A stretch of 50,063 nucleotides of DNA from Candidatus Eremiobacterota bacterium (GTDB taxonomy: Bacteria; Vulcanimicrobiota; CADAWZ01; Ess09-12). The first letter of the stretch is position 1, and every line of letters begins with the position of its first letter. Below are positions 15,741 through 23,947 of this stretch, piece by piece. A program made the position numbers and the translations under genes. Under the pieces are notes generated by a model. It saw nothing but the letters and a program-made list of their open reading frames with translations, did not search any database and was not told the DNA's origin. Location of the stretch: the NCBI GenBank assembly GCA_031082125.1, contig JAVHLM010000002.1:303012-353074 (forward strand), read 5' to 3'.

Positions 15741-18455
15741 CTACAGGTTCTCTTTTGTCTCAGATATGGCGCCCTTGTCAACGAAAGAGAGTATTGACCA
15801 CGAGAGGCGCGCCTGGCTCTGGGCCTTGTTATAGCACGCGGTGGAGAAGAACGGGGCTGACCGGTTCTTCAGGTTGGTGTCATAGCTCATTTTCTGCCAG
15901 TGATAGCCCATGCAGCTCGTGCCGTTGTTAAAGCCGGCGTCGGCCTCCACGTCGGCAAAGCGGGAGATGATGCAGCCGGTGAACTTGAAGATGCCGCCCT
16001 GATAGAGCGTGGCGCTGTTGTTGGTATTATCTTCAAGCTGGAGGGCCCCGTAATTGAAATCCCAGTTGATCTGCGTTCTTCCCTGGTCGGTCATGGCCGT
16101 CCACTTGTCCACGTAGTACTGGCCGTTTTCCTCGAGAAGCCACGAGGGCCTCGTGCCGCCGTTCCCGGTCTTTATTGCCTGGCCGCTCTCAAAGGAGATG
16201 GGGATTTTTCTGACGGTGTCGCCTACGCCCGTGGGAGGATTCGAGGGAACCGTGGCAGGCTTGCCAAAGGGGTTATGGCACATGTTGAAAAAGTCCATGG
16301 TCATGCTGTGGTTCTTGGAGCCTATGGTGGCCGTGACCTCCAGGGTCTGTTTCTGGGTGTGGGCGGGATCGGTGAATCTGCTGTCGGTGGGCGGAATATA
16401 GTCGCTGTCGCTTGGCTTGGGCATCTTGTAGTCATTGAGAAGGACGTGGTTCTTCGCAAGAAGCCCCAGGGAGGGTGCCTGCATGTCCTTGCGGTACACA
16501 AGGTCGCCTACCACCTCGAGGTTTCCTTCAGGCTGCTCGTTTACGGTGGCATCATAGGGAGGGTAGCGGAACTTGAACCGCGTCGGGTTGGCGACGTAGG
16601 TCTCATATTCGCTCTTGGTCATGGACCAGATGGGGCGCTGGGCGCTTGACACTTCGGTTGAGGGGATGCAGTTTATCATCTCGGTGTGCGTGCCGTTCGC
16701 ATCGGTCCATTGCCGCTCCTTGTAGCACTGAAACACGTATTGGCTGGTACTCGTATCATAGACATTGCATGTCGTGAGGCGCTGGTCAAAAAGGCTTGTG
16801 GCGGAGTAAGCCTGGCTTGCGTTGAGGGAATCGGCTTCCCTGTTTGAGCTTGAGTCTGCCACTATGGTGACGGGCGCCGTGAGATGGCCTTTCCCGGGGT
16901 TCCCATCGGCATCCTCGCTGGAATTGGGATTCTTGCCGACGACCTGCACGTTCCCCCCCTTCACATAGATGATGTTTTTAAAGTCAGCATCATCGCTGTA
17001 GAAGGTTTTCGAATAGGCGTCTGTTCCTGAGGCGGCGACGAACTCGCCCGTTGTGGTGTCTCTCCTGAACTTCTGCACGGTATACTTGGTTTTCTGAGGG
17101 TTGTTGCTGGCGTCAAGGACCGGTTCCGTGGTGATCCTGTAAGTGGGAGCCTCTATTTTTTCCCCGGCATAGTGGAGGTCGGGCCTGAGCTCCGAATCAG
17201 CCACTTCTATGAACCACCCTTTTGAGGCGCCGGTGCTTCCGTCCTTGGCGAGGTTGTAAAAGAAGCCGTTCTGGGCGGTGTTTGAAGCGTCAACATAGCT
17301 GAGCTTCTCGGTGCCTCCCGAGGTCTTCCAGATATGCTCATGGATATTCATGGCCGAAGCGCCTGTTTCATAGGGATCCTTGGTATTCTTGAAAATATCG
17401 CCTGACATGAAGTTCCCGGCCCCGTCCTTCATCCCCGTGTGGTACTGGATGCCCACGGCACTCGATGCGGTGGAGGATTTTCCGGATTTCTGCGCGATGG
17501 CCTTGCCGTAAAACTTGGGCCATATGTCGGTATTGCTCGAGTTCGAGCTGTTGAGGAGGTCAAGGTTGATGCTCCCGCTGAAGTCCTGGTTGCTGGGAAC
17601 CCATCCACTTGATACATTAAATGCGGCGCTCACCTGCGGCTTGGCCCATTGAGGTTTCGTAGGATCGTTTATATTCTCTGGGCCGTCAATCTTTATGGCG
17701 CCGTCCCAGTTGAAGTCCTCGCAGACAAAGACCGCGTCGTCGGTGTACTCTTCACGGTTGGGATAGTGGTAGCCTCCGCCGATATCATAGGAGCGGATGT
17801 TCTGATATATTGAGCCGGGGAACTCGTTGCTCAGGCGGGCCAGGACCTCCCGTGACGACACAATATACTCGGGATTGACGGCGGGGTCCTTGTCCTTGGC
17901 GCTCATGATGCGGGCTCTCACAATGACGCGGTAGTTGATGTTGAAAGTATATGCCGCCTCGCCGCTCACCACGACGCTCTGCTCGCTTTCAGGCATTACA
18001 AGGATTCTCCAGTGGCCGTAGAGCTTTGTGTCTAAAAAGCCCAGGTCCTTCAGGTCCGCCTGGGTAACGATGACCATGGCGCCTGAGTTGGTGCCATTGT
18101 AAGGGGCCATATTGAATTCACTGTCGCTTGCCGCGGGGATGATCGTGATTTTCGGCATGATGGAAGAGCTTCCGGGATCGAGGGCGGTGAGGTGCTCCCT
18201 CAGGAAGTTCACTTTGGTGGAGGCGTTGAGGTCCCAGTTATGCGGGTCGCCCATATGGTAGATGGCATAATCTATCCCGGCGTTGGCGTAGGCCACTGCC
18301 ACGGCTTCCTTCTCATAGCCTGCCGATGCCCGGCTGTTGGTGAAGGATATGCCGATATAAGTGACGCCCATGGTGAGAATTGCAAATACGGTGAAAAGGG
18401 CGATCACCAGGGCGATGCCTTTTTCCTTTCCTGCGGGGGTCCTGTATAGTCTCAT
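15741..18455 (-). CDS. Large PilX-like prepilin family protein
   Basis: 904 residues. The amino-terminus has a short basic leader ending KEKG, then the hydrophobic helix IALVIALFTVFAILTMGVTY and AYANAGIDYAIYHM, the pattern of PilX or GspK-type minor pilins, whose helix continues into an AAEAG-like segment. No Glu occurs at +5 after the presumed Gly cleavage, unlike most prepilins. The remaining 840 residues are a large exported domain rich in Asn, Ser, Thr and aromatic residues, with no known domain seen. It is about five times the size of classical PilX. It lies in a minus-strand pilus operon, 144 bp after the PilW-like gene. Likely a pilus-tip or priming subunit with an adhesive domain (inference). 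Confidence 0.75.
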   Translation of the reverse strand: MRLYRTPAGKEKGIALVIALFTVFAILTMGVTYIGISFTNSRASAGYEKEAVAVAYANAGIDYAIYHMGDPHNWDLNASTKVNFLREHLTALDPGSSSIMPKITIIPAASDSEFNMAPYNGTNSGAMVIVTQADLKDLGFLDTKLYGHWRILVMPESEQSVVVSGEAAYTFNINYRVIVRARIMSAKDKDPAVNPEYIVSSREVLARLSNEFPGSIYQNIRSYDIGGGYHYPNREEYTDDAVFVCEDFNWDGAIKIDGPENINDPTKPQWAKPQVSAAFNVSSGWVPSNQDFSGSINLDLLNSSNSSNTDIWPKFYGKAIAQKSGKSSTASSAVGIQYHTGMKDGAGNFMSGDIFKNTKDPYETGASAMNIHEHIWKTSGGTEKLSYVDASNTAQNGFFYNLAKDGSTGASKGWFIEVADSELRPDLHYAGEKIEAPTYRITTEPVLDASNNPQKTKYTVQKFRRDTTTGEFVAASGTDAYSKTFYSDDADFKNIIYVKGGNVQVVGKNPNSSEDADGNPGKGHLTAPVTIVADSSSNREADSLNASQAYSATSLFDQRLTTCNVYDTSTSQYVFQCYKERQWTDANGTHTEMINCIPSTEVSSAQRPIWSMTKSEYETYVANPTRFKFRYPPYDATVNEQPEGNLEVVGDLVYRKDMQAPSLGLLAKNHVLLNDYKMPKPSDSDYIPPTDSRFTDPAHTQKQTLEVTATIGSKNHSMTMDFFNMCHNPFGKPATVPSNPPTGVGDTVRKIPISFESGQAIKTGNGGTRPSWLLEENGQYYVDKWTAMTDQGRTQINWDFNYGALQLEDNTNNSATLYQGGIFKFTGCIISRFADVEADAGFNNGTSCMGYHWQKMSYDTNLKNRSAPFFSTACYNKAQSQARLSWSILSFVDKGAISETKENL

Positions 18456-18599: not shown

Positions 18600-19436
18600 C
18601 TACCGGAGGCTCACGGCGCATTCAAGAGTCACTTCTTTTTTCCGCAGGCGCGTATAGCTGTTGTCGGCCATGCTGAATCTCTGGCCGTAATTTTTGTGGT
18701 TCTGAATGACGGTGAGCTTGATGTTGAATATCCGGTCGTCATAAAATGCGGTGGAGCCCACCTGGGGATGGGAGGCGGTGAGGGTTATCCTGTCGTTGTC
18801 ATAGGGCAGCTCTATCACGGTGGTCTCGGTATAATGGGTGTCCGTGCTGTCGGGCTCGAATGCTGAGAGGGCGACGGTGAAATTGCCGCTCGTATAATCG
18901 AGGCCTTTCACGGCAGTATTCAGGCTCGTCGAATCATACGCCGACCACGTTCTCCTGAGAAGGCGCGCTTTTTCATTGGCGTCTGTGGAGGTGCGCGGAG
19001 GAAAAACCCTGTACTCCACCAGGCGGTACTGGTTAATGTCGGTCTGGTAGTTGATGTTCGCCGAGGAGTTATAACCAAGGCCGTAAAGCTCCATGAATAT
19101 GATGCGCTCGTTGTCGGTGGTGCCCGTTGAGCCGTTGGTCCACGCGGTATTGGCATCCAGTACCGACGGGTAGAGGACTCCGGAGGTGTACTGGGGGGAC
19201 ATGCCGAGGCGGGGAGGCTTTATGGCCTGGCGAAGCTCCGCCTGGAGTGAGTTCATGGCATTTCTGGCGTTCTGCTGGGCCTTCACCTGGGTTCTTCCCA
19301 GTAACGAGGCATCGCTTGAGCTTTTAAAGAGAGCAAAAGTGATGGTTCCCACAATGACGAGCAGAAACGAGGCAACCAGCACCTCTACGAGCGAGACGCC
19401 CCCGTGCTTTTTCACAGATCTGCCATGGTGTGTCAT
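18600..19436 (-). CDS. PilW-like type IV prepilin
   Basis: 278 residues. The class III signal is KKHGG, cleaved before VSLVEVLVASFLLVIVGTIT, with Glu at +5 of the mature helix. The rest is strand-rich with many Thr/Tyr/Asn residues, as in PilW/GspJ minor pilins. The segment KAQQNARNAMNSLQAELRQA is typical of the helix-to-globular transition in PilW. Start ATG is 13 bp after the PilV-like gene. Expected to be processed by a prepilin peptidase, which is not in the window. Confidence 0.85.
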   Translation of the reverse strand: MTHHGRSVKKHGGVSLVEVLVASFLLVIVGTITFALFKSSSDASLLGRTQVKAQQNARNAMNSLQAELRQAIKPPRLGMSPQYTSGVLYPSVLDANTAWTNGSTGTTDNERIIFMELYGLGYNSSANINYQTDINQYRLVEYRVFPPRTSTDANEKARLLRRTWSAYDSTSLNTAVKGLDYTSGNFTVALSAFEPDSTDTHYTETTVIELPYDNDRITLTASHPQVGSTAFYDDRIFNIKLTVIQNHKNYGQRFSMADNSYTRLRKKEVTLECAVSLR

Positions 19437-19449
19437 GAGCGAGCCCCCC

Positions 19450-20145
19450 TTAGTAGTCCATTTTATTGTCCGTTCTCCATGAAGTGACCGTCACTGATTT
19501 CGGCACAAGGAGCCCCGAAGAGCCTCTGAACTCGATCCAGGCCACGGTGACGCTTATCTTCGCCATACGTGACTGCGTTCCCGAGATATTATCGGGAAAT
19601 TCCGTTGATACATTGAAGTCGGGGAAGACCGTGATGTGTATCCCCGGCAGAGGGTTCTGAGCGGTGGGAGTAGAGCCGCTCACCACATGGGGAAGGTAAA
19701 AGACCTTGGGCGGGTTCTGCTGATCGAGCACGTTGGTCTTGAATGATCTCAGGTTTGCCGGGTCATCATCTCCCCAGCAGTAAACGGGGCAGTTCTGCTG
19801 CCACGTGGTATTGTCGTCTCCGTAGAAATGATAAGGCCAGCAATAAGTATTGGAAAGGGTAGGTGTCCACCCCGCCGTGTTGTTCTTTATGGCGAGCTTC
19901 CAGATGGAGAGGGCATCTATTCCCGAGAGGTTTGAGGTATAGAAGGGGCGCATGTTGATCTCCTCGGCGATGCCCCTTGCGATCTCCGTGGCCTGGTTGG
20001 CCAGCTTGTTGGTCTCATTCAGCTTGTAGCCGCCCGGATACACGCAGGCTGTGGCCATGATCACCATGGCAAGCAGAATGACGGCGATGATAATCTCCAG
20101 GATTGAGAGGCCCCGCTCTCTTGAGAACACTTTTCTTTTCCGCAT
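19450..20145 (-). CDS. PilV-like type IV prepilin
   Basis: 231 residues. Leader MRKRKVFSRERG is followed by LSILEIIIAVILLAMVIMAT, with Glu at +5. The exported part has several Cys (YCWPYHF, NCPVYCWG) that could form disulfides. The position, directly after the PilC/GspF gene with a 13-bp gap and before the PilW-like gene, fits a minor pilin that helps start pilus assembly. Confidence 0.85.
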   Translation of the reverse strand: MRKRKVFSRERGLSILEIIIAVILLAMVIMATACVYPGGYKLNETNKLANQATEIARGIAEEINMRPFYTSNLSGIDALSIWKLAIKNNTAGWTPTLSNTYCWPYHFYGDDNTTWQQNCPVYCWGDDDPANLRSFKTNVLDQQNPPKVFYLPHVVSGSTPTAQNPLPGIHITVFPDFNVSTEFPDNISGTQSRMAKISVTVAWIEFRGSSGLLVPKSVTVTSWRTDNKMDY

Positions 20146-20158
20146 TGGGCTGCACCCC

Positions 20159-21376
20159 CTAAAACTTTGATACGAGCTGGTAGATAGGCAGAAACACGGA
20201 AATCAGCACAAAGCCCACCATACCGCCAAGCACGAAGATCATGATGGGTTCTATCATAGATGCAAAGCCTGTAAGAGCATATTCAACCTCGGTATCGTAA
20301 TAATGGGCAAGTTTTTCCAGCAGTATGGGGAGGTTGCCCGTCTCCTCACCGACGGCTACCATGTGGCCCACGATGGGAGGGAAGAGGCGGTTTTCCTGGA
20401 TGGGCTGGGAGAGGCGCATGCCGGCCTTGAGGGCCATTTTGATCTCGTCGATGATGCCGCTCACCACCTCATTTCCCGCGGCCCTGGACACGATCTCCAG
20501 GGAGTGGACGACGGGCACGCCGCTGGAGATGAGGGTGCCCAGGGTCCTGCAGAACCTGGAGAGAATGACTTTTTTGTTGATCTTCCCGATAAGGGGCAGC
20601 TCCAGCAGGATCCTGTCCTTCTGGCGCTTCCCGAGGGGTGTCTTGGCAAACTGCATCGCGAGAAACCCCAGTACGACGACTCCCCCCACGGTGGGGAAGA
20701 AGATGAGGGGATTCAGGATCCCCTCAGTGATGAAGATGAGAAACTTCGTGCAGGCAGGCATTTCGATGTCAATACCCTGGAAAATGGCGATGAACTTGGG
20801 AAAAATGTAGAACACGAGGCCCAGGGTCACGATAATGGAGAACACGAAGACAAAGATGGGGTATACCATCGAGGCGGCCACTTTTTTACGCAGCGTATTC
20901 TCCTTTTCCATGAGCCCGGCGAGCCTGTCGAGGACCTCGCCCAGGGCGCCGGCCATCTCGCCGGCTTTCACAAGGCTTATGTAGACAGGGGAGAATACGT
21001 CAGGGTGCTTGGACATTGCCTTTGAAAGGGAGAAGCCTGACTTGATGTCGTGTGAGACTGCCATGACGGCATAGCCCAGCTTCTTGCTCATGGTCTGCTT
21101 GGAAAGGGCATCAAGCCCCCTTGTGATGGGGAGCCCGGCGTTAAAAAGCACGGCAAACTGGCGGGTAAAAACTGCCAGCGCGTAGAGGCTTACTCTCTGG
21201 AGCTTGCGCGCTATCTCTCTGGCATAGGAGAGGATGTCGGACTGCTGCTTGATATTGGTGACGGTGTAACGGGAGGTCTTGAGATCCTCTATGACGGTTT
21301 CCAGGTCCGGTGCTTCTACGGTGCCGCTTACCACCCGACCGCGGGCGTCGAGTGCCTCGTATGCGAATTTGGGCAT
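20159..21376 (-). CDS. Type II secretion / type IV pilus inner-membrane platform protein (PilC/GspF)
   Basis: 405 residues, the standard family length. The opening MPKFAYEALDARGRVVSGTVEA is classical. Two T2SSF domains follow: one with FTRQFAVLFNAGLPITRGLDAL (about 65-195) and a second with FCRTLGTLISSGVPVVHSLEIV (about 270-395). Membrane helices lie near 165-190, 215-245 and 375-400. It forms the inner-membrane platform that couples a PilB-type ATPase to pilus assembly. It is first of the minus-strand pilin operon with AGGAGG before ATG. A candidate ATPase is far away at 43613-45361. Confidence 0.95.
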   Translation of the reverse strand: MPKFAYEALDARGRVVSGTVEAPDLETVIEDLKTSRYTVTNIKQQSDILSYAREIARKLQRVSLYALAVFTRQFAVLFNAGLPITRGLDALSKQTMSKKLGYAVMAVSHDIKSGFSLSKAMSKHPDVFSPVYISLVKAGEMAGALGEVLDRLAGLMEKENTLRKKVAASMVYPIFVFVFSIIVTLGLVFYIFPKFIAIFQGIDIEMPACTKFLIFITEGILNPLIFFPTVGGVVVLGFLAMQFAKTPLGKRQKDRILLELPLIGKINKKVILSRFCRTLGTLISSGVPVVHSLEIVSRAAGNEVVSGIIDEIKMALKAGMRLSQPIQENRLFPPIVGHMVAVGEETGNLPILLEKLAHYYDTEVEYALTGFASMIEPIMIFVLGGMVGFVLISVFLPIYQLVSKF

Positions 21377-21479
21377 TGCTATGCCTCCTGAGTCAGGTTC
21401 TTTTCAGCAACATATAAACCAGGCAAGTGGCCAGGGCACCTGCCGGGAAAGTGACCGCTTTTTGCTTACCATAAATATA

Positions 21480-22853
21480 TCACAAAACAATCCCATTTTC
21501 AATTATATGTTCCCTCTTTTCATGGGCGCCTGCCTGCTGGCGCTCCCGGGCCTTTAACCAGAGGGAGCACTCCAGGCGCTTTTTTTGAAGGGCGCAGCCC
21601 AGTTCATCGGGCTTCAGGATGTCTCCATTGAAGAGGAGGGCATTGGCATGACAGCCTCCGCTGCAGTAATAGCGGGCCCAGCATGTCCTGCAGGGCTTCT
21701 TGGAGAGCACAGTGGCATCCAGGAAGGTCTGGCGGAGCTCATCGAAGCGCGGGCTCACTCTCGGTGAGAAGAGGGAGCCCATTGAAAAATCAGCGATCTC
21801 CTGGAGCTGGTGGCAAGGGAATATTTCCCCGCCCGGCGTGATGGAGAGATACTCCACGCCGGCGCCGCACCCGGTGAGCCTTCGTGCCGCGCAGAGGGGG
21901 GAATCAAGATACACCTTGAAATGGAAAAATTCAAAGGGCCTCTTTTCCCTTGAGGAGGTGAGGGCCATCCGGGCAAGGGCCTCGTACTCCCTTTCAAGCA
22001 CCGTGAGGTGCGAGATGTTCACGGCCCACACCTCCTCATCTTTTCCCCTTGCAGGCTCGAGGGAAAAGTTCCTGAAGCCATGGGAGATAAAGAACTCGGC
22101 GATTTTTGTGAGCTCAAGGCCCGAGGGGGTGAAGGTGCCTCTCAGGTAATAGTTGCGGTAGCGGCGTTTTTCGAGAAAGCGCTTTATCGATGCGAGGACC
22201 TCCTCCCACGAGGGCCTGCCGTTGAGGAAAGGCCTGTGGCGGTCATGGAGCTCCCGGGGGCCGTCAATGCTCAGGATGACAGAGAAATCCTCGCTGTCAA
22301 GAAAGGAGGCGATGGCGTCCGTGAGGACGGTGGCATTGGTGGTGACGGTGAACTTGATTTCCTTTCCAGATTTGCGGGCCTTTTTCCGACCATGCTCCAC
22401 GGTCTTGCCGATGACCTCGAAATTGAGGAGGGGCTCCCCTCCGAAAAAATCCACCTGGAGCGAGGCACCCTGCCTTGAGTGCTCAAAGAGAAAGTCGATG
22501 GCCCTTTTCGCCGTGGGGAAGTCCATGATGTCGCGGGGTGTGTCCTTTTTCCTGGCAAAGCAGTAACTGCAGTGCATGTTGCAGTCTGAGGTGACATTGA
22601 GGCAGAGGGCCCTCAAGGTTCTTCCCGGAATTTCAGGAGAGAGCTCGGTATCGTTCTCTTTACGCTCAATGGCTGCCAGTTCCCGGTCAAACTCGGAGAG
22701 GCTCTCACCGCGGAGGTCTGGTGAGCCTTCGCTGCGGCAGAGGGCAGCATAGATGCCATCATCCAGAAGATAAAGCCCTCCCCTGAAGCCTATCAGGAGG
22801 TGGGTGCCCTCCATGCTGAAAAGGTGAAAAAGTCCGGGGTCAAGCTTGTGCAT
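21480..22853 (-). CDS. Radical SAM/SPASM peptide maturase, SCIFF-maturase (CteB)-like
   Basis: 457 residues from the ATG at 22853; the frame is open 174 codons further upstream but that part lies antisense to the 23028 gene and lacks domain features. The amino-terminal HLLIGFRGGLYLLDDGIY is a peptide-recognition-like segment as in SCIFF maturases. The radical SAM triad C91-x3-C95-x2-C98 (CNMHCSYC) is followed by VDFFGGEPLLNF. The later half has RGTFTPSGLEL, FEFFHFKVYL, CGAGVEYLSITPGGEIFPCHQL and CWARYYCSGGCHANALLFNGD, closely the pattern of the thioether-forming maturase CteB and its SPASM auxiliary cluster Cys. It should crosslink Cys residues in a precursor peptide. No Cys-rich SCIFF-type precursor is found beside it. 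Confidence 0.85.
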   Translation of the reverse strand: MHKLDPGLFHLFSMEGTHLLIGFRGGLYLLDDGIYAALCRSEGSPDLRGESLSEFDRELAAIERKENDTELSPEIPGRTLRALCLNVTSDCNMHCSYCFARKKDTPRDIMDFPTAKRAIDFLFEHSRQGASLQVDFFGGEPLLNFEVIGKTVEHGRKKARKSGKEIKFTVTTNATVLTDAIASFLDSEDFSVILSIDGPRELHDRHRPFLNGRPSWEEVLASIKRFLEKRRYRNYYLRGTFTPSGLELTKIAEFFISHGFRNFSLEPARGKDEEVWAVNISHLTVLEREYEALARMALTSSREKRPFEFFHFKVYLDSPLCAARRLTGCGAGVEYLSITPGGEIFPCHQLQEIADFSMGSLFSPRVSPRFDELRQTFLDATVLSKKPCRTCWARYYCSGGCHANALLFNGDILKPDELGCALQKKRLECSLWLKARERQQAGAHEKREHIIENGIVL

Positions 22854-23027
22854 AATGATTCCACGGTGATTCCTGTGAAATGTTTTTCTTCCTTGAGGGA
22901 GTTTTTCCCTCTTTGCCTGCGGTACTTCCCTGAAAAGTGCGTCTTCTGCACGATCCTGAAAGAGGAGATGGAGAATGGAGGAGAGAATTCTCATAGGAAT
23001 AAAAAGCCTTAATGGAGGAATCAAGTC

Positions 23028-23339
23028 ATGTCGTTTCTTGACAGATTGGGCGAGCAGGTGAAGAAAGGGAAGCAGATCGCGCAGAAAGGCAAGGAGCTTG
23101 CCATAAAGAAGGCTGAGCGGACGCTCAAGGTGGAGCGCCTCAAGATAGATATCAACGACCTTCGCAAGAAAAAAGACCGGGATATGAGGACCCTTGCGAG
23201 GAAAGTCTATGAGCTTTACTGCCAGAACCAGCTCGAGAGCCAGGATCTTGTGGCGCTCTGCCAGGAGATAAAGACGACGCAGTGGCAGATTGACGAAAAA
23301 TGGTCGGAAGTAAGCCATTTGAAGGAGCTCAGGGACTGA
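23028..23339 (+). CDS. Short coiled-coil protein of unknown function
   Basis: 103 residues, almost entirely helical and rich in Lys/Glu heptads (KKGKQIAQKGKELAIKKAER; later QEIKTTQWQIDEKWSEV). GGAGG lies 8 nt before ATG. There is no membrane segment. It is separated from rdgB by only 2 nt and is probably co-translated with it. No family recognised; a structural or regulatory coiled coil is possible. Confidence 0.75.
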   Translation: MSFLDRLGEQVKKGKQIAQKGKELAIKKAERTLKVERLKIDINDLRKKKDRDMRTLARKVYELYCQNQLESQDLVALCQEIKTTQWQIDEKWSEVSHLKELRD

Positions 23340-23341
23340 CC

Positions 23342-23947
23342 GTGACGCCCGTGAGAGAGCTGCTCCTTGGAACAAAAAACCGCCATAAGATAGAAGAAAT
23401 CACCACAATCCTCCATGGTGTGCCTTTTGTGATAAAGACGGCCTTTGATGTTCCCGGGATTGCCGATGTAGAGGAAGGATATGCCAGTTACGAGGAAAAT
23501 GCCCGAAAAAAGGCATTTTTTTATGCCTCCCAGGCGGGAATGCCTGCGCTTGCCGATGACTCGGGCCTTGAGATCGCATATCTTGACGGGCAGCCGGGAG
23601 TGAGTTCCGCCCGCTTCATCGATCCCGCCATGACCTTCACCGAGCGGAACATAAGAATTCTTGAAATGATGGAATCCGTAGACGACAGCCTGAGGGCAGC
23701 CCGCTTCGTCTGCGTGGTGGCCCTTGCCCGGCCTGACGGCCTGGTGGCCACTTTCCAGGGAGAGCTGCAAGGCACCATAGCCCGCGCGATGAGCGGGGCC
23801 CACGGGTTCGGCTATGACCCCATATTCTGGCTCCCCGATTTCGGCAGGACCCTTGCCGAGCTTGAGCCCCGGGAGAAAAACCAGATAAGCCACAGGGCAA
23901 GGGCGCTGAAAGCCGCCTATGCCACCCTCGTGGCCCTCTCTGCATAA
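23342..23947 (+). CDS. rdgB: Non-canonical purine NTP pyrophosphatase (RdgB/HAM1)
   Basis: 201 residues. Family signatures are LGTKNRHKIEEI at the start, ADDSGLEIAYLDGQPGVSSARF in the middle, the nucleotide-binding GYDPIFW, and SHRARAL near the end. It hydrolyses dITP, XTP and ITP to monophosphates, keeping deaminated purines out of DNA. GTG 23342 is chosen as the first start after the previous stop; GTG 23351 is equally possible. With MutT at 3724 this is the second sanitising enzyme in the window. Confidence 0.95.
   Translation: MTPVRELLLGTKNRHKIEEITTILHGVPFVIKTAFDVPGIADVEEGYASYEENARKKAFFYASQAGMPALADDSGLEIAYLDGQPGVSSARFIDPAMTFTERNIRILEMMESVDDSLRAARFVCVVALARPDGLVATFQGELQGTIARAMSGAHGFGYDPIFWLPDFGRTLAELEPREKNQISHRARALKAAYATLVALSA

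Follow-up and report, generated by a model that had tools for sequence, protein, structure and literature searches.

A divergent, putative SCIFF maturase gene lies apart from the SCIFF precursor gene and upstream of pilC in Candidatus Eremiobacterota

According to the available parts of PMC8326336 and PMC8102284, SCIFF peptides are widely spread among the Clostridia; effects on sporulation genes and quorum sensing have been reported and the active form is unsettled. In the available text of PMC5300114, 234 radical SAM genes were collected on the criterion of a SCIFF gene no more than 500 bp away. Every one was said to score far above the cut-off of the SCIFF maturase profile TIGR03974, and the authors expected an ScfB to accompany every ScfA. 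The window analysed here, a stretch of 50,063 nucleotides from a Candidatus Eremiobacterota genome (contig JAVHLM010000002.1), carries an scfB-type gene with no such precursor gene next to it. This raises the question whether the enzyme is a SCIFF maturase at all and, if so, where its substrate is encoded. The features discussed are collected in Table 1; G000 is the genome of the window, and G000 to G004 make up its order in our survey.

Table 1. Features of the scfB locus and of the remote scfA gene (window positions unless another contig is named)
Feature	Position	Strand	Remarks
scfB-type radical SAM/SPASM SCIFF maturase	21480-22853	-	457 aa; ATG at 22853
ScfB cysteines			radical SAM C91/C95/C98; SPASM C329, C347, C388, C391, C397, C401, C420
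Intergenic stretch upstream of scfB	22854-23027		no SCIFF-like ORF
103-aa coiled-coil-like protein	23028-23339	+	divergent from scfB
Ham1-family (RdgB-type) protein	23300-23947	+	
Promoter-like site TTGAAA-17-TATATT, TG before -10	21474-21502	-	overlaps scfB 3' end; consensus match only
Terminator-like stem	21422-21444	-	after the promoter-like site, ahead of pilC; consensus match only
pilC/gspF-like inner-membrane protein	20159-21376	-	T2SSF 203 bits; same strand as scfB, 103 bp downstream of it
Prepilin-like protein of pilC row	19450-20145	-	by N-terminus; relatives beside pilC in G001 and G002
Prepilin-like protein	18600-19436	-	weak match to N_methyl (18.5 bits; cut-off 21.2); G001 and G002 have relatives next to pilC
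904-aa protein of pilC row	15741-18455	-	no Pfam match; relatives in G001 and G002
scfA, SCIFF precursor, 53 aa	G000:C3, L001:1474-1635	+	outside the window, on a contig other than that of scfB

The start of scfB agrees with the N-termini of its relatives in an alignment. An original prediction, made from the sequence alone, had pointed to a close likeness to CteB and to a CWARYYCSGGC segment in the SPASM region. Among solved structures CteB (5wgg) indeed matched best (309.6 bits, E 3e-91, over residues 8-437), and CRTCWARYYCSGGC was found at residues 388-401. The radical SAM (CxxxCxxC) and SPASM cysteines did not vary in any of the 12 aligned rows; which of these invariant residues serve as cluster ligands is our assumption. 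TIGR03974 was the best NCBIfam profile with 391.6 bits, short of its cut-off of 425, followed by the sibling family 'not_ScfB' (343.1), nif11-type maturases (244.4), PapB (239.2) and QhpD (220.5). The sulfatase-maturase profile TIGR03942 gave 96.3 bits and did not reach its cut-off of 349.45. TIGR03974 was thus ahead of every listed family except 'not_ScfB' by at least 147 bits. The 425 bits are a curated equivalog cut-off, an annotation threshold, and it is also missed by two of the three ScfBs of the phylum that lie next to a SCIFF gene (409.3 bits in G008 and 347.4 in G011). For the window protein we therefore speak of a putative, divergent ScfB that the curated model does not cover. The genome holds 31 stretches that match TIGR03974 at E <= 0.001, and thus many further radical SAM/SPASM-like enzymes; the strongest of the others (191 bits, G000:C12:40566-41813, L003) served as an outgroup.

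A phylogeny, proposed as a check in the original prediction, groups the enzyme with SCIFF maturases and away from the one sulfatase maturase included. In a 26-row tree with QhpD, HxsB, this sulfatase maturase and other, plasmid-borne relatives (outgroups L004-L009 and L035 were left out), 16 ScfBs fell on one side of a branch supported at 86/99. In the other tree 15 ScfBs were separated from eight outgroups of their own phylum at 93/99; both bootstrap values, 86 and 93, are under the 95 mark. QhpD formed a separate clade (100/100) in the 26-row tree, in which the ScfBs of G000-G004 grouped at 100/99.

No precursor gene was found next to the enzyme. Five ORFs of 25-120 aa with at least five Cys per 45 residues are present in the window and none of them is SCIFF-like; the window is not rich in such ORFs (20 order-2 Markov resamples averaged 7.95). 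The upstream intergenic stretch, for which the original prediction had noted the absence of a Cys-rich peptide on the minus strand, has no SCIFF-like ORF either. A profile search of the whole genome (7.43 Mb in 69 contigs, 97.6% complete) returned one clear SCIFF, on contig C3, so that we rejected the view of an orphan enzyme without a precursor. The peptide passes both TIGR03973 (57.6 bits, cut-off 50) and PF13165 (56.4 bits, cut-off 27), contains six Cys and a standard SCIFF core, and its gene is preceded by an AAGGAG stretch. When the genome was searched with a 15-row SCIFF alignment, the same place was found at E 3e-24 and the next at E 2.9; no second SCIFF-like place better than this was seen by profile or alignment search. 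The original prediction had left the choice between a remote substrate and a different peptide class. The former is supported by the SCIFF on another contig; the latter finds no support, the core of this peptide being a standard one.

The usual adjacency is absent for this scfB, as the two genes lie on different contigs. From the distances to the contig ends, scfB (contig C2) and scfA (C3) are at least 162 kb apart: scfB lies 43 kb inside a contig of 368,660 bases and scfA 119 kb inside one of 365,891 bases, each measured from the nearer end. We rejected a broken assembly as the reason for the split in G000 because both genes are so far from the ends. In the five other genomes with split genes, the genes flanking scfA on both sides were read and none of them is scfB.

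The surroundings of scfA were also inspected. An archaemetzincin (M54) gene adjoins scfA in G000 (L036:6162-6785) and in G012 (L044:895-1548), which belong to different families, and an adenylosuccinate synthetase gene stands next to the M54 gene in both. A Cys-containing protein of about 100 aa encoded near scfA in the order (L037:6685-6987; G000:C3:243022-243312) is highly conserved and has no Pfam or NCBIfam match; as a pathway partner it was rejected, since 20 of the 28 genomes that encode it, out of 149, lack SCIFF. Rfam at gathering scores gave one tRNA over seven scfA loci, and a hexamer scan revealed no sigma-70-type site shared by scfA and scfB.

We surveyed 149 genomes of the phylum for both components, calling SCIFF at E <= 0.001 and ScfB-grade enzymes at a TIGR03974 match of E <= 1e-50 and 347 bits or more; weaker matches that pass E 1e-50 (191 bits in G000, 177 bits in G010) are second enzymes of genomes already counted. 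SCIFF was found in ten genomes and an ScfB-grade enzyme (347-573 bits) in nine, all nine being among the ten. The TIGR03974 cut-off was passed in two of the 149. There was no ScfB-grade match without SCIFF in any of these genomes, which again agrees with a remote substrate. G012 has SCIFF and no ScfB was found there; the completeness of this genome is 62%, and the contig that carries its scfA measures 3.6 kb. By chance, the overlap would arise with a probability of 1.3e-13 when genomes are counted and of 9e-4 when families are counted (6 and 7 families, with family numbers taken to run to 16), both uncorrected for kinship, and the co-occurrence partly reflects shared descent.

The arrangement of the two genes differs between lineages. 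They are adjacent in three of the nine ScfB genomes of the phylum (G008, G011 and G013) and in all seven Bacillota loci examined (L019-L024 and L071), with a gap of 81-262 bp in the six that were measured (L024 left out); L025 and L026 were not counted as ScfB loci, having 30-31% identity over part of the query. In the remaining six genomes, the five of the order and G010 outside it, scfA and scfB are on different contigs. A SCIFF-like ORF elsewhere in the genome with conserved linkage in relatives had been named in the original prediction as a result that would speak against it. Such an ORF was found, but linkage is limited to G008, G011 and G013, all outside the order, and is lacking in the order's five genomes. 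The ScfB of G010 joins those of G000-G004 weakly in the 15-ScfB tree (71/60) and this grouping was not recovered in the 26-row tree (AU p 0.166); the split ScfBs may have had one origin or more. SecDF-type genes are expected neighbours of scfA and scfB in Bacillota. None was recognised by eye in the first 60 residues of the ORFs of six loci, with two ORFs run through Pfam. Two of the Bacillota loci contain extremely Cys- and Gly-rich short ORFs (L020:3481-3825 and L023:3831-4160), on the opposite strand and about 0.5-0.9 kb upstream of scfA. We found no mention of split scfA/scfB pairs in the available parts of the SCIFF papers PMC5300114, PMC8102284 and PMC8326336.

The core of the peptide is fully kept in all six split genomes. 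In an alignment of 15 peptides (L021 and L023 were omitted as near copies), residues C27, C30, C34, C38, T40, S41, T43 and C49 of ScfA did not vary. The SCIFF peptides of G008 (L042:870-1001) and G011 (L043:6475-6615) have Ala instead of the fifth Cys (CKTSAT); they are encoded beside their own scfB and score above the TIGR03973 cut-off. The leaders fall into two types. Those of all six split genomes and of G012 contain Trp and no Gly before Cys1, while in all eight adjacent-type peptides of the alignment Trp is missing and a Gly precedes Cys1. The association of leader type with arrangement gave a Fisher P of 0.012 within the phylum and 3e-4 with Bacillota included, for rows that are not independent of each other.

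The enzyme differs in its N-terminal region as well. The first 38 or so columns match those of adjacent-type ScfBs (hhalign probability 88%), but beyond them the region is shorter and diverged in the order. A peptide-binding amino-terminus like that of CteB, claimed in the original prediction, is partly supported by this match, and the claim is weaker than first thought because the TIGR03974 match begins only at residue 79 (profile position 95). A profile of the N-terminal region found no relevant match among solved structures in the PDB. An AlphaFold model built from six sequences had a mean pLDDT of 49.5, and with values of about 28-44 over residues 1-80 it was too poor to judge a leader-binding domain (RRE). 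The differences in the leader and in the ScfB N-terminus would together look like a matched change, and shared descent gives the same picture. The split genomes offer paired differences of leader and N-terminus that may guide studies of recognition.

On its downstream side, scfB has a pilC/T2SSF gene as its immediate same-strand neighbour in all five split genomes with enough contig (G000, G001, G002, G003 and G010), spanning three families of at least two orders; G004 is outside this count, its contig ending 87 bp after scfB. The neighbours are those named in the original prediction, a coiled-coil protein and a pilus operon, and we take the first prepilin-like product downstream of pilC to be such from its N-terminal pattern, its Pfam search giving no match at E 0.01. 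The other flank of scfB varies: coiled-coil and Ham1 genes in the window, ribosomal S20 in G001-G003 (identity checked on the copy of G001) and a 161-aa gene in G010. In each of the four order genomes G000-G003, a promoter-like site of the same type (TTGAAA-17-TAnATT, with TG) separates scfB from pilC, and G010 has a looser match at a different position. Given this site, the two genes may be transcribed separately. A terminator-like stem ahead of pilC is also present in G001 (L050 5883-5904, minus strand). By eye, similar stems were seen ahead of pilC in G002 and G003, and the element might be a leader-RNA element of pilC.

The idea that pilC travels only with scfB was rejected, as relatives at 53-59% identity occur in nine genomes without ScfB or SCIFF. 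Eleven of the 16 PilCs in the orthologue clade are from such genomes. Of 12 scfB-less loci that were read around the pilC orthologue, the same eight have relatives of both the coiled-coil and the Ham1 gene of the window close to it; the five other scfB loci have none. We conclude that the row of genes around scfB in the window is inherited. In the scfB-less loci an aminotransferase-III gene (checked on the copy of G144) is often found between pilC and this pair. The PilC of G010 groups with those of the scfB-less genomes G131 and G132 (90/91), and the tree speaks against uniting the five scfB-linked PilCs in a single clade (AU p 0.037). The scfB-pilC pairing is therefore either old, that is ancestral and followed by losses, or it arose or moved more than once. 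Pilus/type II secretion-like genes are unusually numerous in G000, where the PilC-like protein has 29 matches.

These data bear on what the enzyme works for. If scfB had been recruited to the pilC row, the SCIFF peptide or a prepilin-like second substrate would serve a type IV pilus or type II secretion-like machine. The same-strand adjacency in 5/5 split genomes across three families and at least two orders fits such a recruitment, as does the constancy of the pilC side against a changing other flank. It is opposed by the promoter-like site between the genes in 4/4 order genomes and the terminator-like stem in G000 and G001, by the many PilCs of the orthologue clade from genomes without ScfB or SCIFF, and by the scattering of scfB-linked PilCs over more than one clade. 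The prepilin-like and 904-aa products are moreover poor in Cys, with 1, 4 and 8 Cys in 278, 231 and 904 aa, respectively. Recruitment became slightly less likely once the row around scfB proved inherited, and we regard it as improbable. Equally doubtful is its extended version, in which the SCIFF pathway split in one lineage, the maturase was kept by pilC in at least two orders since the peptide serves pilus/T2S-like surface machinery, and leader and N-terminus changed together. The pilC neighbourhood of scfB is a testable hint at function and no more than that.

The enzyme might instead have left the SCIFF system and modify a different peptide, with the remote SCIFF as a relic. A TIGR03974 score under the cut-off, the diverged N-terminus and the lack of a linked precursor are what this would produce. 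However, the core of the peptide is intact in all six split genomes, ScfB never occurs without SCIFF among the 149 genomes, and neither the genome profile search nor the window yielded a second SCIFF-like candidate, these searches covering the SCIFF class. We consider such a departure very unlikely. We give hardly any probability to the view that the protein is a sulfatase maturase or of the QhpD type and stands outside the SCIFF branch of peptide maturases. Both profiles do match it, but they trail TIGR03974 by the margin given above, the enzyme nests with ScfBs in the tree, and the three QhpD genes compared sit in peaA-peaB-qhpC rows, which is not the case for the window gene.

Our preferred reading is that the divergent ScfB would act in trans on the single remote SCIFF peptide ScfA and form a Cys-Thr thioether in it, to which we assign a probability of roughly 0.85. 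The pairing has its basis in the sequence relationship, the conserved metal-ligand Cys, the presence of one remote precursor, the phylum-wide co-occurrence and the conserved split. Set against it are the TIGR03974 score under the cut-off that the 234 enzymes of PMC5300114 were said to pass with ease, the bootstrap of 86 for the ScfB branch, the shortening of much of the presumed leader-binding region, the share of common descent in the co-occurrence, and G012, where SCIFF was found and ScfB was not. In the activity that we infer, the N-terminal region of ScfB would capture the ScfA leader, and the radical SAM cluster would make a 5'-deoxyadenosyl radical that takes a hydrogen from the side chain of a Thr in the core CKTSCT. 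The presumed donor is the fourth Cys, C38, which would be held at the SPASM auxiliary [4Fe-4S] cluster and form the thioether, making the product a ranthipeptide. In the available part of PMC8326336, CteA is crosslinked between Cys32 and Thr37 or between Cys32 and Thr34. The distances from C38 to T43 and to T40 correspond to these two spacings, and all three residues are invariant in the 15 aligned peptides, which suggests one of these positions for the crosslink. The fifth Cys is an unlikely donor because Ala is found there in G008 and G011. In the order, the pathway would thus be encoded by separated genes, with scfB ahead of the pilC gene row.

That the two genes are split in nature suggests that ScfB does not need their linkage to find its substrate. 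Genome mining that demands an adjacent precursor will then call such enzymes orphans. The scfB-pilC neighbourhood is worth an expression check.

Compared with known systems, the finding is a relocated form, a new arrangement, of the SCIFF system: on the best reading enzyme and substrate are of known kinds, and what varies is their split and the neighbourhood of pilC. With CteB/ScfB (TIGR03974; PDB 5wgg and 5why) the enzyme shares the radical SAM and SPASM cysteines and its best structural match, but it scores below the curated cut-off, has a shorter, diverged N-terminal region and is encoded beside pilC. The precursor has the SCIFF core with the Cys/Thr spacing reported for CteA/ScfA (TIGR03973, PF13165), whereas its leader contains Trp and no Gly before Cys1, and its gene is remote where that of CteA is adjacent to CteB. 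PapB-type ranthipeptide maturases (NF047865) belong to the same superfamily and the ranthipeptide class, but the 239.2 bits of the window enzyme are below their cut-off of 340 and far below its TIGR03974 score, and the precursor here is a SCIFF. The NF040492 'not_ScfB' orphan maturases provide the second-best profile and a similarly orphan-looking locus; the 343.1 bits are nevertheless far below the 855-bit cut-off of that family, and SCIFF is present in the genome of the window. QhpD/PeaB (TIGR03906), described in the available part of PMC8326336 as a thioether-forming radical SAM/SPASM relative, is likewise related to the window enzyme at 220.5 bits, but forms a separate clade and is encoded in its own peaA-peaB-qhpC row.
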